From NCBI RefSeq assembly GCF_003991205.1, contig NZ_RXOZ01000004.1, positions 1 through 64,000 of the forward strand: 64,000 nt of DNA, in the 5' to 3' direction. Under the pieces are notes generated by a model. It did no database searches, was not told the origin of the DNA, and saw only the letters and a program-made list of their open reading frames with translations. The stretch is from Georgenia sp. SYP-B2076. GTDB lineage: Bacteria; Actinomycetota; Actinomycetes; Actinomycetales; Actinomycetaceae. Shown here piece after piece: positions 1,460 to 53,629 of this stretch (within the stretch, counting starts at the first letter, position 1; each line of letters starts with the position of its first letter). Both the position numbers and the translations under genes were made by a program.

Positions 1460-1693
1460 GAAGAGGTACTTCTCTCAGCAGGAGGTCACCGCAGGCATCT
1501 CCGCAGTTGCGTCATCGGCGGCCGAGCCGCCGGCGCTGTAAGCCGTGCTGTGCGATGTCGGGGCGCCGTCAAGCAGCGGTCCCTGCTGTCAGTATGGCAC
1601 GCGACGCGTGTTGTGGGGCGTCTCCGTCCGGTGACTGCACTCACAGCGTTGCCGGGCGGCCGCCCGCGCCGGCGGCCCCGCGACACCCCTCCG

Positions 1694-1741
1694 GCGCCCG
1701 GAACGGGCGTCGCCCAGGCACCCGGAGCGGGCGCCGCTCAG
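1694..1741 (-). repeat. Two-copy 24 bp repeat spanning the EamA stop codon
   Basis: Positions 1718-1741 contain the last codons and TGA of the EamA gene. Positions 1694-1717 repeat them with 20 of 24 bases identical, the TGA having become TGG. This resembles the stop-codon repeats seen at several other genes in the window. Confidence 0.6.
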
Positions 1742-2664
1742 GCCTTCGCCGGGGCCTCGCCCGCCCCCGAGGCGAGGGCCACGGCGACGCTGACGAGCAC
1801 GAGCCCCGCCGCCTCCCCCGGCGACGGCACCTGGCCGAGCACGACGAGCCCCACCAGCAGCGACGTCGCGGGCAGCAGCGAGGTCAGCAGCGCGAAGGTC
1901 GGGGCGGGCAGCCGGGTGAGCGCCACCTGGTCCACGGCGTAGGGCAGGAACGAGGAGAGCACCCCGACGCCGACGACGCCGAGCAGCAGCGCCGGCGACG
2001 CCAGCGCCTCCCCGGCCGTGCCGGCGGCCACCGGGGCGTACACGAGCGCGCCCGCCGCCATCCCCACGGCGAGTGAGTCCAGGCCGCTGCGCCCCGAGGC
2101 GATGCGCCGCCCCAGCACGATGTAGCCGGCCCACGCCGCGCCGGCCGCGAGCGCGAAGGCCACGCCGACGCCGGTGCCCGGGCGGGACCAGTCGAGCCCC
2201 AACCCGGAGATGGACAGCACCCCGAGCAGGGCGACGACGATCGCGCCGCGCACCCGCAGGCCCCGGCCGGCCACCGCCGCCACCGCCACGGGCCCGAGGT
2301 ACTCCAGCGACACGGCGCTGCCGAGCGGGAGGTGGTCGATGGCGACGTAGAACAGCAGGTTCATCCCGGCGAGGATGATGCCGAACAGCGCGGAGGCCGC
2401 CGCCGTGCGCGCGGTCCACACGCGGCGCCAGGGCCGGCGCCAGGCCACCAGCAGGACGGCGGCGACGAGGATCCGCCACCAGGCCACCGTGGTGGCGGGC
2501 ATGATGGCGAAGAGCCCGACGGCGAGCGCGGCGCCCAGGTACTGGCTGGCGCCCGAGACCATGAAGAGCGCGGGGGCCGGCACCACCGCGCCCCGGCGGG
2601 GGCCACCCGTCCCGCGCCCGCCCGGCCCGCCAGGCCGGGGCCGTGGCGCGCCGCGGCGGATCAT
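1738..2664 (-). CDS. EamA-family (DMT superfamily) transporter
   Basis: Integral membrane transporter of the drug/metabolite superfamily, 308 residues, substrate unknown. The first ~30 residues are Arg/Gly/Pro-rich; after them roughly ten hydrophobic segments form two EamA repeats. The first runs from about residue 33 and includes the signature region VSLEYLGPVAVA; the second starts near residue 170. The protein resembles the RhtA-like threonine/homoserine exporters, but that is only inference. The ATG overlaps the TGA of the upstream AEC transporter gene (ATGA), so the two are translationally coupled and probably form one operon. The frame stays open far upstream, but the coupled ATG at 2664 is the sensible start. 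Confidence 0.85.
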   Translation of the reverse strand: MIRRGAPRPRPGGPGGRGTGGPRRGAVVPAPALFMVSGASQYLGAALAVGLFAIMPATTVAWWRILVAAVLLVAWRRPWRRVWTARTAAASALFGIILAGMNLLFYVAIDHLPLGSAVSLEYLGPVAVAAVAGRGLRVRGAIVVALLGVLSISGLGLDWSRPGTGVGVAFALAAGAAWAGYIVLGRRIASGRSGLDSLAVGMAAGALVYAPVAAGTAGEALASPALLLGVVGVGVLSSFLPYAVDQVALTRLPAPTFALLTSLLPATSLLVGLVVLGQVPSPGEAAGLVLVSVAVALASGAGEAPAKA

Positions 2665-8926: not shown

Positions 8927-9790
8927 GTGCGTGTACTCGTCACCAACGACGACGGCATCGCCTCGCCGGGTCTGACCGTCCTCGCGCGCGCGGCGCTCGA
9001 CGCGGGCCACGAGGTCGTCGTCGTCGCCCCCCACCGCCAGTACTCGGGTGCCAGCGCGGCCCTGACCGCCCAGGAGGAGGACGGGCACCTCGTCCTCGTC
9101 GACGAGCGACCACCCGGCCTGCCCGACGGCGTGCGCGCCTTCGGGGTCAAGGCCGCCCCGGCGCTGATCACCTTCGTGGCCTCTTTCGGTGCCTTCGGCG
9201 AGAAGCCCGAGGTCGTCATGAGCGGCATCAACCTTGGTGCGAACACGGGCCGCGCCATCCTGCACTCCGGCACGGTCGGCGCTGCGCTCTCCGCCTCCGG
9301 CCACGGCATCCGCGCGATGGCGGTGTCGATCGCCTCGGCCGACCCGCAGCACTGGGACACCGCCGAGCAGGTCTCCGCCCTCGGCCTGGACTGGCTCGTC
9401 AAGCAGGACCAGGACGACCGGGTCCTCAACATCAACGTGCCCGACGTCGCCCCTGAACGGCTGCGCGGGCTCCGGTCAGCCGAGCTGGCGAGCTTCGGTG
9501 CCGTGCAAGCCCGGGTCAAGGAGCGGCGCAAGGGGTACGTGCAGCTGACCTACTCCGGTGTCGAGGCCGAGGACGAGCCCGGGACGGACCACTACCTTCT
9601 GGCGCGCGGGTGGGCCACGGCCACGATGCTGCGCGCCCCCGTCGACGACGACAGCGGCCTGACGCTGCCGACCTTCGACGGCCGCGCCGGCGGGCGTCCC
9701 GCCGAGGCACCCCTGGTGGAGGTCAGCTCCGGCACGGTCATGTCCACCGGCGCCGGGTCGTCGGACGGGCAGGCCGGCGCCGGGGAGTGA
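8927..9790 (+). CDS. surE: 5'/3'-nucleotidase SurE
   Basis: Metal-dependent nucleoside monophosphatase, 287 residues, linked to stress survival and overflow nucleotide hydrolysis. The N-terminal VTNDDGI carries the paired metal-binding aspartates at positions 8 and 9. A Ser-containing PHRQYSGASAA lies near residue 37 and the metal-binding Asn is in SGINLGANTG near 97. Core length is normal; the last ~30 residues are a Gly/Ser/Ala tail. The GTG start follows AAGGAGA, which overlaps the stop of the upstream kinase gene. It converges with the metallopeptidase gene. Confidence 0.93.
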   Translation: MRVLVTNDDGIASPGLTVLARAALDAGHEVVVVAPHRQYSGASAALTAQEEDGHLVLVDERPPGLPDGVRAFGVKAAPALITFVASFGAFGEKPEVVMSGINLGANTGRAILHSGTVGAALSASGHGIRAMAVSIASADPQHWDTAEQVSALGLDWLVKQDQDDRVLNINVPDVAPERLRGLRSAELASFGAVQARVKERRKGYVQLTYSGVEAEDEPGTDHYLLARGWATATMLRAPVDDDSGLTLPTFDGRAGGRPAEAPLVEVSSGTVMSTGAGSSDGQAGAGE

Positions 9791-9791
9791 C

Positions 9792-9854
9792 GGGCCGCGC
9801 CGTCAGACCCGCCGGGCCGCGCCGTCAGGCCCGGCCACGCCCTCAGGCCCAGCC
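9792..9854 (-). repeat. Three-copy repeat carrying the metallopeptidase stop codon
   Basis: The real stop (TGA, plus-strand 9843-9845) sits in a copy of GGCCTGA that recurs with TGA at 9825-9827 and 9803-9805, spacings of 18 and 22 bases. The unit GGGCCGCGCCGTCAG at 9792 and 9814 is identical over 15 bases. It lies between the convergent surE and metallopeptidase genes. Confidence 0.65.
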
Positions 9855-10223
9855 GAGCTCGTGCAGGCGCCGGTCGTCGATGCCGAAGTGGTGGGCGACC
9901 TCATGGACGACGGTGATCGCGACCTCGTCGACGACCTCCTCCGTCGTCTCGCACAGGCGCAGGGTGGGGCCCCGGAAGATCGTGATGCGGTCCGGCAGCG
10001 AGCCGGCCGCCCACCACGAGTCCCGCTCCGTCAGCGGCGTGCCCTCGTAGATCCCCAGGAGGTCCTCGTCCTCCTCGCCCTGCATCTGCTCCGCCGTCGG
10101 CTCGTCCTCGACGAGGACGACGACGTTGTCCATGCGGTCGGTCAGCTCGACGGGGATGAGGTCCAGGGCATCGGAGACTGCCTCTTCGAAGGCCTCGCGC
10201 GACATGTCCACCACGGGGTCCAT
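9843..10223 (-). CDS. Small zincin-like metallopeptidase family protein
   Basis: Protein of 126 residues with a C-terminal HEVAHHFGIDD, an HExxH zinc-binding motif followed by the third ligand region expected of the minimal zincin fold (the former DUF1025 family). An acidic stretch, GEEDEDLLGIYEG, precedes it. Members are compact cytoplasmic proteins whose protease activity has rarely been shown. The ATG at 10223 is chosen because GGAGGGCAGG lies directly upstream; an in-frame ATG at 10205 and a longer open frame to 10343 are less likely. Its 3' end carries stop-containing repeats. Confidence 0.85.
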   Translation of the reverse strand: MDPVVDMSREAFEEAVSDALDLIPVELTDRMDNVVVLVEDEPTAEQMQGEEDEDLLGIYEGTPLTERDSWWAAGSLPDRITIFRGPTLRLCETTEEVVDEVAITVVHEVAHHFGIDDRRLHELGWA

Positions 10224-10289
10224 CCTGCCCTCCTGCGCCCCGGACGCCAGACCCGACGCGAGCGTGACGGGAAGCACACCGTCCTGGTT

Positions 10290-16520: not shown

Positions 16521-16651
16521 CTTCCGTGCGCCGACGTGGCCCGCCCGGGGCGCGGCGCTCCCCGCCGAGCCACGGCGCACCATGCCCGGTCTGGGGCGAC
16601 CCATCGGGGTCACGGCGCACCCCGCCCGGCCGAACCCGGCACACGGCGCCG

Positions 16652-16714
16652 GCTCAGCTCGTGCGGTAGCGGCCGGCAGCGCCGCGACGGCTCAGCTGGT
16701 GCGGTAATGGCCAC
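16652..16714 (-). repeat. Duplicated purM 3' end including the stop codon
   Basis: Minus-strand TACCGCAC(C/G)AGCTGAGCCG, which encodes YRTS-stop at the purM end (TGA at 16692-16694), is repeated 38 bases further on with TGA at 16654-16656. Twenty or so bases match with one difference. Confidence 0.65.
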
Positions 16715-17828
16715 CCAGGCGCACGGCCCCGCCGTCGACGCCCTTGGTGCCCCGCACGGCGTCGCCGTCGGTTCCGGGCGTGCCGTCGTCCTCGCTGACG
16801 CCGCCGAGCACCCACGCGTCGATCCCGCGCGCGGTCACGGCCGCGACCGCGGCGTCGACGTCGGCCGCGGGCACCACGGCGACCATGCCGATCCCCAGGT
16901 TGAGCGTGTTCTGCAGGTCCTGCCACGGCACCTGGCCGAGCCTGCGGACCAGCTCGAAGATCGGCGGCACCACCCAGCTGGACCGGTCGACGTCGGCGAC
17001 GAGCCCCCGGGGAAGCACCCGGGCGAGGTTGGCCGCGAGCCCCCCGCCGGTGACGTGGCTGAAGGCGTGCACGTCGATGGCAGGGTCGTCGACCAGGTCC
17101 AGGCAGGCGGGCGTGTACAGCCTGGTTGGTTCGAGGAGCTCCTCGCCCAGCGTGCGGCCCAGCTCCGGCACCTGCCGGTCGTAGGCCCAGCCCGCGACGT
17201 CGAGGACCCGGCGGACGAGCGAGTAGCCGTTGGAGTGCAGGCCGGAGGCGGCCATCGCCACGACGACGTCCCCCGCGCGCACCCGCTCCGCGCCGAGCAC
17301 GGCGTCGGCCTCGACCACGCCGGTGGCCGCGCCGGCCACGTCGTACTCGTGCTCGCCGAGCAGCCCCGGATGCTCGGCGGTCTCCCCGCCCAGCAGCGGC
17401 GTGCCGACGAGGGCGCACGCCTCGGCGATGCCGCGGACGATGTCCGCGACGCGCTCGGGCACCACCTTGCCGGTGGCGATGTAGTCGGTCATGAGCAGCG
17501 GCCGGGCGCCCACGACGACGATGTCGTCCACGACCATGCCCACGAGGTCGTGGCCGATGGTGTGGTGCACGTCCATCGCCTGCGCGACGGCCACCTTGGT
17601 GCCCACCCCGTCGGTGGAGGTGGCGAGCAGGGGCCGGCGGTAGTCCTTCAGCGCCGAGACGTCGACGAGCCCGGCGAACCCGCCCACGCCGCCCACCACG
17701 GCGCCGGTGTGGGTGGCGCGCACGGCCTCCTTCATGAGCTCGACGGCCCGGTCCCCCGCCTCGGTGTCCACCCCCGCGGCGGCGTAGGTGATCGGCGCGT
17801 CGGGCCGGGCGGGGCTGGTCTCGCTCAC
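16692..17828 (-). CDS. purM: Phosphoribosylformylglycinamidine cyclo-ligase (AIR synthetase)
   Basis: Catalyses ATP-dependent closure of formylglycinamidine ribonucleotide to aminoimidazole ribonucleotide in de novo purine synthesis. The 378-residue protein has the N-terminal ITYAAAGVDTEAGD, the STDGVGTK nucleotide motif near residue 72, DDIVVVGARPL, GGETAEHPG and the C-terminal HVTGGGLAANLARVLP, all diagnostic. Residues 340-370 are a Gly/Asp-rich insert, and the last residues are repeated in the DNA downstream. The GTG start overlaps the purF stop (GTGA), so purF and purM are coupled, the usual actinobacterial order. Confidence 0.96.
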   Translation of the reverse strand: MSETSPARPDAPITYAAAGVDTEAGDRAVELMKEAVRATHTGAVVGGVGGFAGLVDVSALKDYRRPLLATSTDGVGTKVAVAQAMDVHHTIGHDLVGMVVDDIVVVGARPLLMTDYIATGKVVPERVADIVRGIAEACALVGTPLLGGETAEHPGLLGEHEYDVAGAATGVVEADAVLGAERVRAGDVVVAMAASGLHSNGYSLVRRVLDVAGWAYDRQVPELGRTLGEELLEPTRLYTPACLDLVDDPAIDVHAFSHVTGGGLAANLARVLPRGLVADVDRSSWVVPPIFELVRRLGQVPWQDLQNTLNLGIGMVAVVPAADVDAAVAAVTARGIDAWVLGGVSEDDGTPGTDGDAVRGTKGVDGGAVRLGGHYRTS

Positions 17829-29572: not shown

Positions 29573-29620
29573 CACCTGTGGCAGAGAATCTGGGGTGTGG
29601 GGTTGCGCGGCGGCCGGCCC

Positions 29621-29709
29621 GTCAGTGCCGCGGGCGGCGGGGCGTCAGCGCCTCGGTCGGCGGCCCTCAGCGCCGCGGCGGGCGAGCGTCAGCGCCGCGG
29701 CGGGCGGAT
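29621..29709 (-). repeat. Four-copy ~22 bp repeat carrying the SCP2-like gene's stop codon
   Basis: Minus-strand TGA codons occur at plus positions 29689, 29667, 29645 and 29622 (first base), spacings 22, 22 and 23, each in the setting CGCCGCGGCGCTGA or a close variant. The first is the true stop. The two gene-proximal copies are identical over 18 bases. The stops fall in all three reading frames. Confidence 0.75.
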
Positions 29710-30126
29710 GCGCACCAGGGGCAGGACGGCGCTCAGGTCCGCGCGGGTCCCGGACGCGCTCACCCGCCCGGCGGCGACGGCGTCGTGCCACGCGATCCGG
29801 CCCGTCGCGAGGGCGAGCCAGGTCTCCTGGTCCGTCTCGATGACGTTCGGCGGCGTGCCGCGGGTGTGGCGGGGGCCGGCGATGGCCTGGACCGCGCCCG
29901 CCGGGGGCACCCGCACCTCCACGCTGTTGCCGGGCGAGCTGACGGCCAGCTCCTCGAGGGTGAAGCGCACGGCGGTACGCACGACGGCGGCCGGCAGGGC
30001 CGCCGCGTCGCCCGCCCCGGCCTCCGGGGCCGGGCCGGCGGGTCCGTCGCCCGAATCCTGGAACGCCGACCACCGGCGCAGGGCCGTCATGCCGTCGGAG
30101 GGGTCGATGCGTCTGCGGGGTGGCAC
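29689..30126 (-). CDS. Sterol-carrier (SCP2-like) family protein
   Basis: Protein of 145 residues resembling the actinobacterial sterol carrier family: [17 protein letters not shown] at the N-terminus, a central [22 protein letters not shown] and C-terminal [25 protein letters not shown], the SCP2 pattern of a ligand-binding groove. The ligand is unknown, likely a lipid or acyl compound. The GTG at 30126 has a -10 box six bases upstream and no ribosome site. Its 3' end is repeated four times. A second ATG at codon 13 exists. It stands alone, upstream of and codirectional with the fructose operon. Confidence 0.8.
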
Positions 30127-43889: not shown

Positions 43890-46800
43890 GTGAGTGCCCC
43901 GTCACCGTCGGTCGACCCGGACCCGTTGCTGGCCGGTGACCGCGTCCCCGAACCACGCACCCTGGTCGACGTCCTCGCCGCCACGGCGGCCGCGTTCCCC
44001 GCGGCCCTCGCCATCGACGACGGCGACGAGGAGCTCACGTACGAGGCCCTCCTCGAGGCCGTCGAGGCGCGGGCCGGCCGACTCGCGGCGGCCGGGGTGC
44101 GCCGCGGCGACCGCGTCGGGGTGCGCGCCACCTCCGGCACGGTGGACCTCTACCTCAGCATCCTCGCCATCCTGCAGGCAGGCGCCGCCTACGTTCCGGT
44201 CGACGCGGACGACCCTGACGAGCGGGCCGCCCTGGTCTTCGCCGAGGCGGACGTGGTCGGCGTCGTCCAGGGCGACGGCCTCCTCGCCCGCGCGGACGGG
44301 ACGACCGTGTCAAGGCGCCCGGCAGCGGGGACCACCGGCGCGGCAGCGGGGACGACCGGCCCGGTGGTGGGGACGACCGGCGCGGCAGCGGGGACGACCG
44401 GCCCGGTGGTGGGGACGACCGGCGCGGCAGCGGGGACCACCGACGGCGCCGCGGCGGCGCCCCGCCCGGATGGCACCCCGGACGCGCCCGAGGCCCCCAG
44501 GCTGGACGACGACGCGTGGGTCATCTTCACCTCCGGCTCCACCGGCAAGCCCAAGGGGGTGGCCGTCACGCACCGCAGCGCCGCCGCGCTGGTGGACGCG
44601 GAGGCCCGCCTCTTCCTCCAGCACGACCCCATCCACCCGGGCGACCGGGTCCTGGCCGGCCTGTCCGTGGCGTTCGACGCGTCCTGCGAGGAGATGTGGC
44701 TCGCGTGGCGCCACGGCGCCACCCTCGTCCCGGCGCCGCGTGCGCTGGTGCGCGCGGGCACGGACCTCGGCCCGTGGCTCGTGGAGCGGGAGATCACGGT
44801 CGTCTCGACCGTGCCGACCCTGGCCGGGATGTGGCCGGTGGACACCCTCGACGACGTGCGCCTGCTCATCTTCGGCGGCGAGGCCATCCCGCCGGAGCTG
44901 GCCACCCGCCTGTCCCGCCCGGGACGGGAGCTGTGGAACACGTACGGCCCCACGGAGGCCACCGTCATCGCGTGCGCCGCGCAGCTCGAGCCCCACGAGC
45001 CCGTGCGCATCGGGCTGCCGCAGGACGGCTGGGACCTCGCCGTCGTCGACGCGGGGGGCAACCCCGTCGCCGAGGGGGAGACCGGCGAGCTCATCATCGG
45101 CGGCGTGGGCCTGGCCCGGTACCTCGACCCGGAGCTCGACGCGAAGAAGTTCGCGCCGATGCCCTCGCTCGGCTGGGCGCGCGCCTACCGCAGCGGGGAC
45201 CTCGTCCAGCTGGACCGGTCGGGCCTGATCTTCGTGGGCCGTGCGGACGACCAGGTCAAGGTCAACGGGCGGCGGATCGAGCTGGGCGAGGTCGACGCGG
45301 CGCTGCTCGGGCTGACCGGCGTGGGGGCGGCGGCCGCGGCGGTGCGCCACACCCCCACCGGGACCGCCGTCCTCGTCGGGTACGTCGTCCCGGCCGGCCC
45401 CGGGGGGCTGGACACCGGCGCCCTGCTCGCGGAGCTGCGGGAGGAGCTGCCGGCGTCGCTGATCCCGCTCCTCGCGGTCGTCGACTCCATCCCCACCCGC
45501 ACCTCCGGCAAGGTCGACCGCGCCGCCCTCCCGTGGCCGCTGGACTTTGGGGCGCAGGAGCGCCCCTCGACCCTGACCGGGACCGCTGCGTGGATCGGCG
45601 AGCAGTGGTCGGCCGTGACGGGCGTGCGTCCCACCGGCCCGGAGGACGACTTCTTCTCCCACGGCGGCAGCTCGCTGACCGCCGCGCAGCTCGTCTCCGC
45701 GCTGCGGGCCCGCTATCCCGAGGTCACCGTCGCCGAGGTCTACCGCCACCCGGAGGTCGGTGACCTCGCCACCCACCTGGAAGCGAGCTACCCGGCGCCG
45801 TCCGCGAGCGCCACCGACGCCGACGCGCTCGGCGAGGCCCGCGAGGTCCGCCCGGTGCCCGTGGGCAGCCAGCTGGCCCAGCTGCTCGCGCTGGTCCCCC
45901 TGCGCACCCTCGTGGCGCTGCGGTGGCTGACGGCGCTGGCCGCGATGAACAACGTCCTCGACTGGGCCTGGCAGGTGCCCTGGGCCGTGCCGGTGCCGTG
46001 GTGGTGGGTGGCGGTGGGCTGGCTGCTCACGGTCAGCCCCCTGGGGCGCATGGGCGTCAGCGCCCTCGGCGCCCGCCTCCTGCTGGCCGGGGTGTCCCCC
46101 GGCACGTACCCGCGGGCGGGCGGCGTGCACCTGCGCCTGTGGGCGGCGGAGCGGCTGGTGGACGGCTTCGGCGCGGTGACCACCGCGAGCGCCCCGTGGG
46201 TGGCGCTGTACGCCCGGGCGCTCGGGGTGCGCATGGGCCGCGGCGTGGACCTGCACGCCGTCCCGCCCGTCACGGGCATGCTCACGCTGGGCCCGGAGTG
46301 CGCCGTCGAGCCCGAGGTGGACCTGTCCGGGCACTGGGTCGACGGCGACGAGGTGCGCATCGGGCGCATCGTCGTCGGGGAGCGGGCGACCGTGGGGGCG
46401 CGCAGCGTGCTCTACCCCGGCGCCCGGGTCGGCGCCGGGACCGACATCGCCGCCGGCTCGGCGGTGCACGGGCGCACCGGTGAGGACGAGTACTGGGCCG
46501 GGTCGCCCGCGGCGAAGGTTCACGACGCCCGGCACCCGTGGCCCTCGCGGCGCCCCGAGCAGCCGGCCGTGTGGGTGTGGGGCTACGGCCTCTCGGCGGC
46601 GACGCTCGCCCTGCTGCCGGTGGCCGCCGTCGCCGTCGGCCTGGCGCTGGTGGGCGTCGCCGTGCGCGGCAGCACGACGCTCGGCTCCGCCGTCGGCCCG
46701 GCGCTGCTGGCGGGCCTGGCGGCCACGGTGGTCGCGTACGTGGTGTACGCGGTGCTCGTCGTCGTCGCGGTGCGGCTGCTGGGCCTCGGCCTGGTCGAGG

Positions 46801-47963
46801 GCTTCCACCCGGTGCGCTCCCGCGTGGGGTGGCAGGCCTGGTGCACCGAGCGGCTGATGGACTCCGCCCGCACGGCGCTCTTCCCGCTGTACTCCTCGGT
46901 CGTCACCCCGGCATGGCTGCGGCTGCTCGGCGCCAAGGTGGGCGACGGCGTCGAGGCCTCGACCGTCATCGGGCTGCCCAGCATGATGCGCGTGAAGTCG
47001 GGGGCCTTCCTGGCGGACGACACCATGATCGCCCCCTACGAGCTCGGCGGCGGGTGGGTGCGGGTCGCGCGGGCGAAGGTGGGCCGGCGGGCCTTCCTCG
47101 GCAACTCGGGCATGACGGCGCCGGGACGCACGGTCCCGAAGAACGGCCTCGTCGCCGTCCTCTCGGCCACGCCGGCCAAGACCCGCGCGGGCTCGAGCTA
47201 CATCGGCAGCCCGCCCGTGCTGCTCCCCCGCGCCGCGACCCTGGACGACGGCGAGCTCACGTACTCCCCGCCCGCGCGCCTGCGCCGGGCCCGGGCGATG
47301 GTCGAGGCGTGCCGCGTGGCGCCCGCCGTCCTCGTCGGGATCCTCGCGCTCGCCACGGCGCTGACGCTGCAGGCGCTCGTCCTCGCCGGCGGCTGGGGGC
47401 TGGCCGCGTGGCTCGGCGGGATCGTGCTGCTGGCCGCCGGGGCGGTGGCGGCGCTGGTGACGATCGCCGCGAAGTGGCTGCTCGTCGGCCGGGTCCGGCC
47501 CGGGGAGCACCCGCTGTGGAGCTCGTTCGTGTGGCGCGGCGAGCTGGCCGACACCTTCACCGAGATGCTGGCCGCGCCGTTCTTCGCCGACGCCGCCACC
47601 GGCACCGTCGCGCTGGTGTGGTGGCTGCGCGGCATGGGCTCCCGCATCGGGCGCGGCGTGTGGTGCCAGACGTACTGGCTGCCCGAGGCCGACCTCGTCC
47701 GCCTGGGCCGCGGCGCCAGCGTGGGCCCGGGCTGCGTGGTGCAGACCCACCTCTTCCACGACCGGATCATGAGCCTGGACACCGTGACCCTCGCGGGCGG
47801 CGCCACCCTCGGCCCGCACGGGGTGATCCTGCCCGCCTCCACGCTCGGCGCGGGCAGCTGCGTCGGCCCGGCGTCGCTGGTCATGCGCGGCGAGGGCGTG
47901 CCGGCCGGCACCCGCTGGGTGGGCAACCCCATCGCGCCGTGGCGCTCGGGCGGTGCCGCGTGA
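43890..47963 (+). CDS. Pls/PosA-family non-ribosomal peptide synthetase
   Basis: Single-module synthetase of 1357 residues in the architecture of epsilon-poly-lysine synthetase. An adenylation domain occupies 30-545: A3 IFTSGSTGKPKG near 212, A5 NTYGPTEA near 351, A8 GRADDQVKVNGRRIELGE near 450, A10 SGKVDRAAL near 537. A carrier domain follows at 585-635, with phosphopantetheine serine in HGGSSLTA. Then come membrane helices and three left-handed beta-helix (hexapeptide) acyltransferase-like domains near 800-875, 1025-1110 and 1255-1357, separated by helix pairs. In Pls these tandem domains join amino acids into a homopolymer. The amino acid is not predictable by eye. GAGGAGAAG precedes the GTG. 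It is coupled to an M1 peptidase gene. Confidence 0.88.
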   Translation: MSAPSPSVDPDPLLAGDRVPEPRTLVDVLAATAAAFPAALAIDDGDEELTYEALLEAVEARAGRLAAAGVRRGDRVGVRATSGTVDLYLSILAILQAGAAYVPVDADDPDERAALVFAEADVVGVVQGDGLLARADGTTVSRRPAAGTTGAAAGTTGPVVGTTGAAAGTTGPVVGTTGAAAGTTDGAAAAPRPDGTPDAPEAPRLDDDAWVIFTSGSTGKPKGVAVTHRSAAALVDAEARLFLQHDPIHPGDRVLAGLSVAFDASCEEMWLAWRHGATLVPAPRALVRAGTDLGPWLVEREITVVSTVPTLAGMWPVDTLDDVRLLIFGGEAIPPELATRLSRPGRELWNTYGPTEATVIACAAQLEPHEPVRIGLPQDGWDLAVVDAGGNPVAEGETGELIIGGVGLARYLDPELDAKKFAPMPSLGWARAYRSGDLVQLDRSGLIFVGRADDQVKVNGRRIELGEVDAALLGLTGVGAAAAAVRHTPTGTAVLVGYVVPAGPGGLDTGALLAELREELPASLIPLLAVVDSIPTRTSGKVDRAALPWPLDFGAQERPSTLTGTAAWIGEQWSAVTGVRPTGPEDDFFSHGGSSLTAAQLVSALRARYPEVTVAEVYRHPEVGDLATHLEASYPAPSASATDADALGEAREVRPVPVGSQLAQLLALVPLRTLVALRWLTALAAMNNVLDWAWQVPWAVPVPWWWVAVGWLLTVSPLGRMGVSALGARLLLAGVSPGTYPRAGGVHLRLWAAERLVDGFGAVTTASAPWVALYARALGVRMGRGVDLHAVPPVTGMLTLGPECAVEPEVDLSGHWVDGDEVRIGRIVVGERATVGARSVLYPGARVGAGTDIAAGSAVHGRTGEDEYWAGSPAAKVHDARHPWPSRRPEQPAVWVWGYGLSAATLALLPVAAVAVGLALVGVAVRGSTTLGSAVGPALLAGLAATVVAYVVYAVLVVVAVRLLGLGLVEGFHPVRSRVGWQAWCTERLMDSARTALFPLYSSVVTPAWLRLLGAKVGDGVEASTVIGLPSMMRVKSGAFLADDTMIAPYELGGGWVRVARAKVGRRAFLGNSGMTAPGRTVPKNGLVAVLSATPAKTRAGSSYIGSPPVLLPRAATLDDGELTYSPPARLRRARAMVEACRVAPAVLVGILALATALTLQALVLAGGWGLAAWLGGIVLLAAGAVAALVTIAAKWLLVGRVRPGEHPLWSSFVWRGELADTFTEMLAAPFFADAATGTVALVWWLRGMGSRIGRGVWCQTYWLPEADLVRLGRGASVGPGCVVQTHLFHDRIMSLDTVTLAGGATLGPHGVILPASTLGAGSCVGPASLVMRGEGVPAGTRWVGNPIAPWRSGGAA
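44328..44450 (+). repeat. 21 bp tandem repeat inside the synthetase gene
   Basis: Units start at 44328, 44349, 44370, 44391, 44412 and 44433 (the last diverged), alternating GTTGAAA and GTTGPVV in the protein (residues ~147-187). The repeat lies in a surface loop of the adenylation domain before the A3 motif and keeps the frame. Confidence 0.9.
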
Positions 47964-49285
47964 GCGCGACCGACCCCTATGAGCCGACCCACGGCTGCCG
48001 GACCATCCACGTCGAGCACTACGACCTGGACCTGTCCTACCGGGTGTCCACGAACCGGCTGACGGGCACCGCGGTGCTGCGGGTGCAGGCCCGCGAGGAC
48101 CTCAAGGAGCTCGCCCTCGACCTCGAGGGCCTGACGGTGAAGAAGGTCGCCGTCTCGGGGGCCGCGCTGGCCAAGTACGCGCACCGGCAGTCGCGCCTGC
48201 GCCTCAAGCTCGCGGACAAGGTGGCCGCGGGGACCACGTTCGAGGTCACCGTCGGCTACGAGGGTTATCCGGCGCCGGTGCCCAGCGCCTGGGGCGAGGT
48301 GGGCTGGGAGGAGCTCACGGACGGCGTCATCGTGGCGAGCCAGCCCATCGGGGCCTCGTCCTGGTTCCCCTGCAACGACCTCCCGGCGGACAAGGCCACC
48401 TACCGCACCTCGGTGACGACGGAGAGCGCCTACCGCGTCCTCGCGCACGGCACCCTGGCCGGCCGCCACGTGCGGGCCGGCACCACCCGGTGGGTCTACG
48501 AGGAGCGGCACCCCACGAGCGCCTACCTCGCCACCGTGCAGATCGGCCGCTACGAGGAGGTCGTCCTGGCGGAGGGGCCGGTGCCCCAGCGCGCCCTGGT
48601 CCCGGCCCACCTGCGCGGTCTCGCGCGGGAGAAGCTGGCGTACCACGGGCAGCTCATGGGCGAGCTCACCGCGATGTTCGGGCCGTACCCGTTCAGCGCC
48701 TACACGCTCGTCTTTACCGACGACGAGCTTGAGATCCCCGTCGAGGCCCAGGGCGTCTCGATCTTCGGCACCAACCACCTGGCGGCGCAGGACGGCGAGG
48801 AGCGGCTGATCCCGCACGAGCTCGCGCACCAGTGGTTCGGCAACTCCGTCTCGGTGGACCGCTGGCAGCACATCTGGCTCAACGAGGGGTTCGCGTGCTA
48901 CGCCGAGTGGCTGTGGTCCCCGCTCGCGGGCGGCGCGGGCACCGACGCGCTGGCCCGGACGTGGCACAAGCACCTCGCCGCCGACGAGCAGGACCTCGTC
49001 CTGGCCGACCCTGGACCGACGAACATCTTCGACGACCGTATCTACAAGCGCGGCGCGATGACCCTGCACGCGCTGCGCCTGACGGTCGGCGACGGGGTGT
49101 TCTTCCCGCTGCTGCGGGACTGGGCCGCGCGGTACCGGTACCGCGGCGTCACCACCGACGACTTCCGTGCGCTCGCCCTCGAGCACGCCGAGGCGGCCGG
49201 CGGGGACACCCTGACGCGGTCCGTGCGGTCGTTGCTGGCGAACTGGCTCGACGACGCGCGGCTGCCGGCGCTACCGAAGGCGTGA
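47960..49285 (+). CDS. M1-family zinc aminopeptidase
   Basis: Metallopeptidase of 441 residues, the short M1 form without the long C-terminal helical domain. The N-terminal beta domain runs to ~200, with SAWGEVGWEELTDGVIVASQ (shortened family exopeptidase region) and ASSWFPCNDLPADKATY. The zinc site IPHELAHQWFGN near 292 is HExxH, and the third ligand is in WLNEGFACYAEW near 315. The GTG overlaps the stop of the synthetase gene (GTGA), so both are made together. It may trim or degrade the peptide product, or be a general peptidase. Repeats follow its stop codon. Confidence 0.92.
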   Translation: MSATDPYEPTHGCRTIHVEHYDLDLSYRVSTNRLTGTAVLRVQAREDLKELALDLEGLTVKKVAVSGAALAKYAHRQSRLRLKLADKVAAGTTFEVTVGYEGYPAPVPSAWGEVGWEELTDGVIVASQPIGASSWFPCNDLPADKATYRTSVTTESAYRVLAHGTLAGRHVRAGTTRWVYEERHPTSAYLATVQIGRYEEVVLAEGPVPQRALVPAHLRGLAREKLAYHGQLMGELTAMFGPYPFSAYTLVFTDDELEIPVEAQGVSIFGTNHLAAQDGEERLIPHELAHQWFGNSVSVDRWQHIWLNEGFACYAEWLWSPLAGGAGTDALARTWHKHLAADEQDLVLADPGPTNIFDDRIYKRGAMTLHALRLTVGDGVFFPLLRDWAARYRYRGVTTDDFRALALEHAEAAGGDTLTRSVRSLLANWLDDARLPALPKA

Positions 49286-49402
49286 ACCGGCACTGCAGAA
49301 GGCGGTGAGCGGCGCTGCCGAAGGCGGTGAGCGGCGCTGCCGAAGGCGGTGAGCCGGCACTGCCGAAGGCGTGAGCCGGCACTGCCGAAGGCGTGAGCCG
49401 GC
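49266..49402 (+). repeat. Six-copy 22 bp repeat of the M1 gene's 3' end with its stop codon
   Basis: TGA codons, each after a G-C-C-G-A-A-G-G-C-G type context (CAGAAGGCG in the second copy), lie at 49283, 49306, 49328, 49350, 49372 and 49394, spacings 23, 22, 22, 22 and 22. The first is the true stop. The unit is GGCACTGCCGAAGGCGTGAGCC. Stops fall in all three frames, and the array fills the whole gap to the convergent phosphopantetheinyl transferase gene. Confidence 0.92.
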
Positions 49403-49403
49403 G

Positions 49404-50276
49404 CTAGGGCGCGAGGGCCGCGGCGCCGTCGTGTACCCGGACCACGAGCCCGCGGGCGGCCGGTTCGGCGAGGTCCGAGCCGCCCGCCGCGAGGAACGCC
49501 ACGGAACCGGCGATGCCCGGGTCCAGGTCGAGGTCCGCAAGGACGATGCCCGGGTCACCTCTCTCCGAATACTGACCCCCGGCGCCCGCGGCCGTTGCGG
49601 TCGGGGACGTTGCGCCCCGGGCCGTTGCGGTCGAGCCCGTTGCGGCCGCCTGCCGGCCGAGGCTTCGGGGGGCTGGCGCCCCGAGGACACATGCGGACCG
49701 CCCATCTTCACCGAGGTCGAGTCGGGAGGGCTCGAGGTCCAGGCCTGCGCCGAGGGCCTTGAGCACCGCCTCCTTCCGCGCCCAGAGCCGGGTGAGGGAC
49801 GAGGCACGTTCGGTGGCGGGCAGCCGCCTGTACCGAGCCAGCTCGGATGGGGTCAGGGCGACGTCGGCGACCGGCGCGGCCCCCACCGTGAGCGAGGACT
49901 CGATGTCGATCCCGACCGGGCCGTCGGCGCACACGGCGACGCCCAGCAGGGGCCCGGACCGGGTGACGCTGACGTGCAACGGCGGTTCGACGCCCACCCG
50001 GACCCGGCCGTGCGGGCGCCCGCAGACGTCACACCGGGCCGACAAGGGAACTCCCTGCGGCGGCACGCCGAGCCTCTCGCCCAGAACGGCACGGAGCAGA
50101 GCCCGTGCCGTCACGAAACGCGCGGCCTGCCCCTCCGGCAGGGCCGCGGCCCTCTCGCGCTCGGCATCGCCCAGGACGGCAAGAATCGTGGCACGGGCAG
50201 CGATGCGGGCGATCGGTGTGGTCGACGGATCGAGAAGCCAGACGTCGACCGAGGCTGGGTGCCGATCGGTGTGCAC
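49404..50276 (-). CDS. 4'-phosphopantetheinyl transferase (Sfp type)
   Basis: Moves phosphopantetheine from CoA to carrier-protein serines. The 290 residues show the Sfp signatures: HVSVTRSGPLLGVAV near 120, GIDIES near 140 with the Mg-binding residues, and LTRLWARKEAVLKALG near 175 (W-x-x-K-E-A). A Gly/Ala/Thr-rich insert lies at about 210-235, where the DNA carries GCCGTTGCGGTC-like repeats. The neighbouring synthetase has a carrier domain and is the obvious substrate; that is inference from position. GTG at 50276 is chosen because CAAGAT lies six bases upstream as a leaderless -10; a GTG at 50315 is also in frame. Confidence 0.85.
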   Translation of the reverse strand: MHTDRHPASVDVWLLDPSTTPIARIAARATILAVLGDAERERAAALPEGQAARFVTARALLRAVLGERLGVPPQGVPLSARCDVCGRPHGRVRVGVEPPLHVSVTRSGPLLGVAVCADGPVGIDIESSLTVGAAPVADVALTPSELARYRRLPATERASSLTRLWARKEAVLKALGAGLDLEPSRLDLGEDGRSACVLGAPAPRSLGRQAAATGSTATARGATSPTATAAGAGGQYSERGDPGIVLADLDLDPGIAGSVAFLAAGGSDLAEPAARGLVVRVHDGAAALAP

Positions 50277-52621: not shown

Positions 52622-52690
52622 CCGGTCCCGTCGTCGCGAAGCCGGCCCGGTCGTCCCTCAGCCGACCCCCGTCGTCGCTCAGCCGACCCG
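52622..52690 (-). repeat. Repeated 3' end of the PfkB gene with its stop codon
   Basis: The minus-strand sequence around the true stop (GACCGGGTCGGCTGAG, plus 52679-52681) recurs ~21 bases on with TGA at 52658-52660. It recurs again in two diverged copies without the stop, starting near 52642 and 52622. Spacing is 20-21 bases. Confidence 0.7.
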
Positions 52691-53629
52691 GTCGTCGTCG
52701 GCCTCGACCGCCGCCAGGAGGTCATCGCGCCCCGGATACCTGTCCAGCGACCCTCTCCCCACCACCGTGGAGGCGAGCCGCACCCCGGTGGTCAGGGCGG
52801 CCGGCAGGCTCGCGCCCTCGGCGAGATCGGCGAGCACGCCGGCCGCGAGGCTGTCGCCGGCGCCGGTGCTGTCCAGCGCGGCCACCGGCGGCGCGGAGAT
52901 CCGCACCACGTCACCCGGTGGCCCCAGGGCCACCGCCCCGCGCTCTCCGCGTTTGACCACCACCCAGCCGCCGCAGCGGTCGACCAGCGTCGCGAGCGCC
53001 CGCTCGACGTCGTCCTCCCCCGTGAGCGCCAGGGCCTCCGGCTCGTTGGGCAGGAAGATGTCGACGAGCGGCAGCAGCTCGAGGACCTCGCGGACGGCAC
53101 CGCCCTGCCAGTCGTCGGGATCCCAGCCGGTGTCGAAGAGCGTCACGGCCCCGTGCTTGCGGGCCCGCTGGAGCAGATGCGCCGTCGCCTCCCCGCGGAG
53201 CCCGGGGATGGAGAAGTACCCGGTGAGGAGCACGAGGTCCGCCTCGCAGGCCTGCACGGGCACGTCGCCCTCGCCGTAATTGGTCAGCACGCCGTGCGCG
53301 GTCAGGAAGGCGCGCTCACGGCCGGGTGCCTCGAGCGCGATCGAGATGCCCGTCTCCTGGCCGTGGACCACCTGCAGGTCAGCGCCGACCCCCGCGCGCC
53401 GGAGCTCGGCCGCCACCCACCGGCCGGCCTGGTCATCCCCCACCGCACCGAACAGCCGGTGGCGGACGCCGAGACCGGCGAGCGCCAGCGACACGTTCCC
53501 CGCCGCGCCGGCGGGCCGGACGGCGATCCGCTCGACCACGTCGTCGCCGCCCGGGCGTGGCAGCGCGGTCACCGGGCCCGCCAGCACGTCGAGCTGGATG
53601 TTGCCGATGACGTGAACGACGCGGCCCAT
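52679..53629 (-). CDS. PfkB-family sugar kinase of an ABC sugar operon
   Basis: Ribokinase-type kinase of 316 residues. VHVIGNIQLDVLAGPV at the start, the sugar-binding RPAGAAGNVSLALAGLG near 38 and the ATP site ALDSTGAGDSLAAGVLADL near 250 with the GAGD motif are complete. IFLPNEPEAL is typical of the carbohydrate-kinase branch. The substrate is unknown but should be the sugar, or its isomerised product, taken up by the four genes upstream. It is the last gene of that operon; its ATG comes three bases after the SIS gene stop. The DNA at its 3' end is repeated. Confidence 0.9.
   Translation of the reverse strand: MGRVVHVIGNIQLDVLAGPVTALPRPGGDDVVERIAVRPAGAAGNVSLALAGLGVRHRLFGAVGDDQAGRWVAAELRRAGVGADLQVVHGQETGISIALEAPGRERAFLTAHGVLTNYGEGDVPVQACEADLVLLTGYFSIPGLRGEATAHLLQRARKHGAVTLFDTGWDPDDWQGGAVREVLELLPLVDIFLPNEPEALALTGEDDVERALATLVDRCGGWVVVKRGERGAVALGPPGDVVRISAPPVAALDSTGAGDSLAAGVLADLAEGASLPAALTTGVRLASTVVGRGSLDRYPGRDDLLAAVEADDDRVG

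Follow-up and report, generated by a model that had tools for sequence, protein, structure and literature searches.

Tandem repeats of several described kinds bear comparison with the arrays of Georgenia sp. SYP-B2076 (hereafter the source genome). Dispersed repeat families of the MIRU type carry the same unit at many loci, whereas within the 1.25 Mb searched here the sharing of units across loci did not exceed that of shuffled controls. Additional tandem stop codons in yeasts have reportedly been studied as a fail-safe. In both that case and ours extra stops lie shortly past the real one, but the Georgenia copies appear to be passengers of duplication, with no frame preference and no extra conservation. 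Satellites of 22/44 and 52 nt are said to be the subject of a 2020 J Bacteriol paper by Subirana and Messeguer. Bacterial minisatellites (VNTR) are likewise private arrays of short units, found in gaps and, in frame, in genes, and consistent with slippage; the difference is that some Georgenia arrays take in a gene's stop.

The closest described class, going by the available part of PMC8161180, is that of the bacterial non-coding satellites of 20–23 nt reported by Subirana and Messeguer, which are variable in sequence and for which at least four copies are required. The likeness to the satellites in that part of the paper lies in non-coding arrays, many of them near 20–22 bp, with locus-specific sequence; the differences are that Georgenia periods are not constant, that no shared family was detected, and that four copies are reached by 8 of 65 non-coding arrays here. 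The text available of PMC2884548 holds slippage between short repeats to be the probable origin of many variable short segments in bacteria. Another parallel is the rnc–fpg1 gap of Mycobacterium tuberculosis, which according to the accessible portion of PMC2734929 was enlarged by variable tandem repeats and is only a few bases long in related species. A non-exhaustive search of literature titles and abstract openings returned no description of stop-spanning arrays in actinobacteria.

We read the Georgenia arrays as private, minisatellite-like arrays that arose by short tandem duplication, probably through slippage, and were kept where tolerated, the copied stops being passengers; we give this reading a probability of roughly 85%. 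The pattern is genuine and its cause ordinary: short duplications were tolerated, and some of them include a stop by chance.

Arrays at gene ends in the window

The window is the whole stretch of 64,000 nucleotides (64 kb) that was analysed, and its gene names were checked against Pfam. The features concerned are the following.

47960..49285, + strand: M1 family aminopeptidase (PepN) gene (gene call; Pfam Peptidase_M1 PF01433, E=1.7e-25)
49265..49406, no strand assigned: PepN tandem array, period 22–23, about 6.2 copies (TRF and sequence)
49265..49273, + strand: CCGGCGCTA, 9-base direct repeat, left outer copy of the PepN array (sequence)
49398..49406, + strand: CCGGCGCTA, right outer copy of the PepN array, including the TAG of the convergent gene, CTA on the + strand (sequence)
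49404..50276, - strand: 4'-phosphopantetheinyl transferase superfamily gene, the convergent neighbour (gene call; Pfam ACPS, E=1.7e-14)
29606..29707, - strand: array spanning the 3' end of the gene for SCP_3, which is sterol-carrier-like (29689–30126), with four TGAs (TRF period 22/44; sequence)
9791..9854, - strand: array where the convergent genes SurE (8927–9790, + strand) and Zincin_1 (9843–10277, - strand) meet (TRF; comparison of nine Georgenia)
52627..52697, - strand: array spanning the 3' end of PfkB (52679–53629) (TRF period 20; sequence)
16646..16706, - strand: weak two-copy array, period 38, at the end of the PurM gene (16692–17828) (score 17)
1693..1743, - strand: weak two-copy array, period 24, at the end of the EamA gene (1738–2586) (TRF, score 15, sequence)

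The first copy of the main array consists of the last codons and the TGA of the M1 aminopeptidase gene; five further copies follow, and the array wholly occupies the gap between this gene and the convergent phosphopantetheinyl transferase gene, whose stop lies at 49404–49406 (CTA on the + strand, that is TAG). TRF placed the array at 49265–49402, with period 22, 6.2 copies, 88% matches and a score of 171. The TGA that ends the gene starts at 49283 and the further ones at 49306, 49328, 49350, 49372 and 49394; the spacings are 23, 22, 22, 22 and 22, and the six triplets fall in frames 0, 2, 0, 1, 2 and 0. The sequence-only reading of this DNA had described exactly this, six TGAs spaced 22–23 bp apart in all three frames at the end of PepN, and both the sequence and TRF bear it out.

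The PepN copies differ among themselves by substitutions, and the inner ones have CTG where the outer CCGGCGCTA copies have CTA. This outer pair may have served as the seed of slippage, which would fit priming by a short direct repeat. The array is absent in all five congeners that have a close ortholog, where the gene ends with a similar LPAL/LPPL tail and no array; the remaining three congeners gave no PepN match above 41% identity. Two of the congeners, G001 and G004, have the same aminopeptidase loci as Georgenia sp. EYE_87 and Georgenia ruanii, which points to Georgenia as the genus.

The five further gene ends named in the sequence-only reading all carry real repeats, of unequal quality, and the stop was not copied and kept in each of them. 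The SCP_3 end has four TGAs (detector score 22), and the end of the Zincin_1 metallopeptidase has three minus-strand TGAs, 18 and 22 bp apart (score 18), the gene's own TGA being outside the array scored by the detector and inside that delimited by TRF. At the PfkB end, which scores 20, the TGA is present in the gene and in the first repeat of it, and two further copies have other triplets, so that the stop is lost in the later units. The PurM end has two TGAs separated by 38 bp, and the second copy of the EamA array reads TGG instead of TGA, so that its stop is not duplicated; the scores of these last two (17 and 15, respectively) are under the main threshold of 18.

Placement of arrays relative to stops, starts and reading frames

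Arrays were detected with an exact period of 12–70, +1/-2 scoring and a score of at least 18. In 1.25 Mb of the source genome, which is about 29% of a 4.28-Mb draft in 37 contigs, we obtained 82 non-coding and 61 coding arrays. The joined intergenic DNA of this genome contained 70 arrays, and none appeared in any of four first-order Markov shuffles; the head-to-tail copies are therefore beyond chance. Genes were called with a home-made caller; its retraining on more sequence dropped SCP_3, one of the 89 gene stops compared, which is for this reason missing from the counts of stop overlaps.

For the placement test each array was slid randomly within its own gap, with entry into genes allowed up to one period, under two rules, and the gaps were used as found, with the arrays lengthening their own gap. 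The pooled Georgenia samples are the source genome, G008 and G006, under one gene model. The pool has 137 non-coding arrays. A stop is overlapped by 32 of them (28.7 or 32.4 expected) and a start by 4 (20.2 expected if entry is allowed). Taken singly, the source genome has 20 stop overlaps (18.4 or 20.6 expected) and 2 start overlaps (12.3 expected, P 0.0005), G008 has 7 stop overlaps (6.1 or 6.6 expected) and 2 start overlaps (3.7 expected, not significant, P 0.22), and G006 has 5 stop overlaps (4.5 or 5.6 expected) and no start overlap (4.6 expected). Neither a threshold of 14 or 24 nor the use of TRF changed the result for stops. Avoidance of starts held at every setting in the source genome and was lost at threshold 24 in both smaller samples. 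Two genomes beyond Georgenia yielded just 2 and 7 arrays, too few for this test.

Array coverage past the stop is 4% in the first 20 bases and higher downstream (7–8% at 20–80 bases, 6–8% at 20–100 bases), and repeats are thus at least as common away from stops as at them, an outcome that the sequence-only reading had itself named as a refutation. Based on the placement tests and this profile, arrays avoid starts but do not target stops. The proposal of a process directed at gene ends is not borne out by these counts, in which the overlap with stops is that of random placement.

Inside genes, a strong filter by reading frame was observed: 118 of the 123 coding arrays pooled from the three Georgenia samples have a period divisible by 3, and TRF showed a weaker filter of the same kind in the source genome (208 of 234 coding arrays). 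Per Mb, 575 arrays lie in non-coding DNA, while coding DNA has 196 with an in-frame period (per third of periods) and 4 with an out-of-frame one; these rates make the balance of mutation and selection countable. Such an in-frame bias is what genome-wide duplication followed by selection predicts. Coding arrays of the three samples were also over-represented near the C-terminal end, with 19 of 120 lying within 60 nt of it (7.8 expected, range 3–13), compared with 12 at the N-terminal end. One coding example in the window is an in-frame 21/42-base repeat at 44317–44469, which encodes a linker repeat of the GTTGAAA/GTTGPVV type within the large gene at 43890–47963; the translation of this gene suggests an adenylation protein of the peptide-synthetase type.

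We propose that duplications of about 12–60 bp would arise genome-wide, probably when replication slips from one short direct repeat to another, and that the duplicated units could later expand. Selection would then sort the survivors: within genes almost solely in-frame arrays would persist, duplications over start codons or ribosome sites would be purged, and those in post-gene DNA would be tolerated. Because ribosomes terminate at the first copy, duplications across a stop would be silent at any period, and the stop copies would hence be passengers; in convergent gaps, a duplication would also widen the space between the two genes. The data show where the arrays lie, the filter by frame, the privacy of those arrays that were compared and the lack of extra conservation in copied stops; the origin of the copies by slippage and their neutrality are inferred. 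Among 43 perfect two-copy non-coding arrays, 15 have clean flanks, and 11 of these 15 show at least four extra matching bases (chance extension 3.2%), a signal that remnants of a third copy can mimic. In coding two-copy arrays, flanks were clean in 12 of 43, with at least four extra matching bases in 5 of the 12. The extra partial copy fits priming by short direct repeats, to which truncated third copies may contribute. A replication error kept at harmless sites had been listed third among the options of the sequence-only reading, and the random placement at stops, the avoidance of starts and the frame filter all support it.

Other readings of the stop-spanning arrays

A role in ending transcription, in which the units would be hairpins and the array a multiplied terminator or buffer between convergent genes, is unlikely. 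In each of the three Georgenia samples, array density does peak where genes converge (58, 62 and 54 bp/kb, against 38, 33 and 44 in same-strand gaps, with a small margin in G006), but an excess of this kind is equally expected from avoidance of promoters and starts alone. For the PepN array, the + strand transcript has a strong fold (z -4.3) and may act locally as a terminator, but the minus strand has a z of only -0.9. Gene 3' ends are structured in general (mean z -0.77 against -0.09 in coding DNA), and 60-base windows after the stop that lie at least half in an array are no more structured (mean z -0.66, n=42) than those with no array (mean z -0.77, n=501; P 0.63 for these two classes). The mean z of windows that an array covers only in part is -1.27 (n=19). 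Single array units were not rich in hairpins either (fold mean z -0.26, n=75). The equal structure of 3' ends with and without arrays thus speaks against the second of the functions put forward from the sequence.

The first of those functions was a fail-safe, by which selection would multiply the stop codon so that ribosomes that read through or shift meet a second stop in any frame. In its favour, the stops of the PepN array cover all three frames, and in the source genome a second in-frame stop lies within 75 nt in 47% of the 19 genes with a stop-spanning array, against 25% of 613 genes (20% of 5 against 26% of 180 in G008; 50% of 4 against 25% of 169 in G006), but copying alone would give the same result. 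The arrays themselves show no sign of such selection: stops are not overlapped in excess of random placement, copied stop triplets are less conserved than the flanking bases (identity 0.826 against 0.884, 44 copies), the periods of stop-spanning arrays have no frame preference (8/11/10 by remainder modulo 3), and the spanned stops are not biased to TGA (19 of 22, against 852 of 1090 overall; Fisher P 0.44). Nor are the arrays that were compared common to congeners. A broad test described in the available part of PMC6764699 found extra 3' stops to be scarce rather than abundant in eubacteria, and no selection for them. A fail-safe is largely refuted by the present tests, and we regard it as very unlikely.

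An excess of sense-strand stops after genes was considered as a further line of evidence and was not used; copies of a gene's own stop are also counted within arrays. In same-strand gaps of the source genome there are 682 sense and 610 antisense stops outside arrays (48,257 triplets) and 36 sense and 20 antisense stops inside arrays (2,746 triplets); the counts inside arrays were 15 and 6 in G008, and 9 and 6 in G006.

A protein-binding satellite, for which a period of 20–22 bp would matter as two helical turns in the way suggested for constant-size satellites of bacteria, is highly improbable. The commonest single non-coding period in the source genome is indeed 22 (8 of 82 arrays, with 20–22 in 17 of 82), and sequence-variable non-coding satellites of 20–23 nt occur in many bacterial groups according to the available part of PMC8161180. 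The periods nevertheless range from 12 to 61 and show no 10.5-bp phasing (nR2 = 1.1; 148 arrays, five genomes), which gives no weight to the sequence-only remark that 22 makes two turns of the helix. Helical phasing had also seemed plausible by eye from periods 22, 33, 41–42 and 51, and was ruled out by the same value. The units form no family beyond shuffled controls, with matches elsewhere for 31 of 82 arrays against 26 of 82 after shuffling (1.25 Mb; very short motifs escape this search). Period 19 was seen in 6 of 22 non-coding arrays of G008, 4 of 35 of G006 and 2 of 82 of the source genome.

Finally, an assembly artefact is barely credible, for although the source genome is a draft of 37 contigs, two single-contig congeners have a similar density of arrays (55 and 88 against 66 per Mb), the repeats are of small extent, and substitutions distinguish the copies within the main array.

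The duplication reading explains the growth of convergent gaps and the copies of stops without any safety device, and counsels caution in inferring function from repeats at gene ends.

Arrays in relatives and at the Zincin_1/SurE junction

The ends of SCP_3, Zincin_1, PurM and EamA were read past the stop in all eight congeners, with unit differences between species judged by eye from the printed sequence and the period; for PfkB the congeners have no close ortholog (best identity 38%). By eye, none of the eight congeners has an array identical to that of the source genome at any of these four ends, and at SCP_3 none of the eight has a like array after the stop. Different arrays were found at the same ends in three congeners for Zincin_1, two for PurM, five for SCP_3 and one for EamA (before the stop). 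Among the SCP_3 congener arrays, one starts 8 bases past the stop and the others further away; all their periods are divisible by three, and they possibly lie inside the next gene.

The convergent SurE/Zincin_1 gap (window 9787–9846; L241–L249) measures from 2 to 87 bp among the nine Georgenia. Four of the nine have arrays at this junction, each with its own period and, as judged by eye, its own unit. The gap measures 2, 12, 21, 31 and 43 bp where there is no array, and 52, 64, 77 and 87 bp where there is one, with periods, ordered by gap length, of 22, 27, 23 and 17; this relation is partly built in, because an array needs room. The Zincin_1 tail before the stop is nearly identical across the nine genomes, so the downstream units in L247 would be copies of the gene end, and the L247 tail the probable source of the repeated units.

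The C-terminal excess of coding arrays, together with the coincidence of the four longest Zincin_1/SurE gaps with the four that have independent arrays, leads us to a more speculative suggestion. In some actinobacterial lineages, stop-spanning duplication at a high rate might act as a silent ratchet that repeatedly and independently rebuilds convergent gaps and lays down in-frame copies of gene tails. If that were true, one later loss of a stop would add a C-terminal repeat. We hold this extension to be doubtful.

Array density differs widely between lineages. Non-coding arrays number 55–88 per Mb in the Georgenia samples and 10 and 35 per Mb in two other genomes. At the named loci (74 of 80 loci, after five MAG records and one locus shorter than 12 kb were dropped) we counted 70 arrays per Mb in Georgenia (3 arrays), 52 in Cellulomonas (4), 31 in Williamsia (2), 23 in Actinotalea (1), 6.7 in Kribbella (1), 5.9 in Tsukamurella (1), and 0 in both Rhodococcoides and Antrihabitans. 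The Nocardia loci have 4.4 arrays per Mb (4 arrays over 0.9 Mb of a single syntenic region), and the density of non-coding arrays is thus more than tenfold higher in the Georgenia samples, with few Nocardia arrays behind this ratio. Slippage alone does not account for this difference between Georgenia and Nocardia. Repair genes gave no explanation of density in the 37 genomes searched: NucS is present in all 37 and Ku in 24, including all nine Georgenia, with the source genome part of both counts.

Two single loci may be added. At the EamA end, G007 (L277) has a 13-base near-copy that spans the TAG and that G006 (L276) does not have; from the sequence, it is possibly a duplication near its birth, the divergence after the stop from G006 being too large to decide. 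In G002, the whole SurE/Zincin_1 gap region reads TGA-GC-TCA, a palindrome built from both stops.
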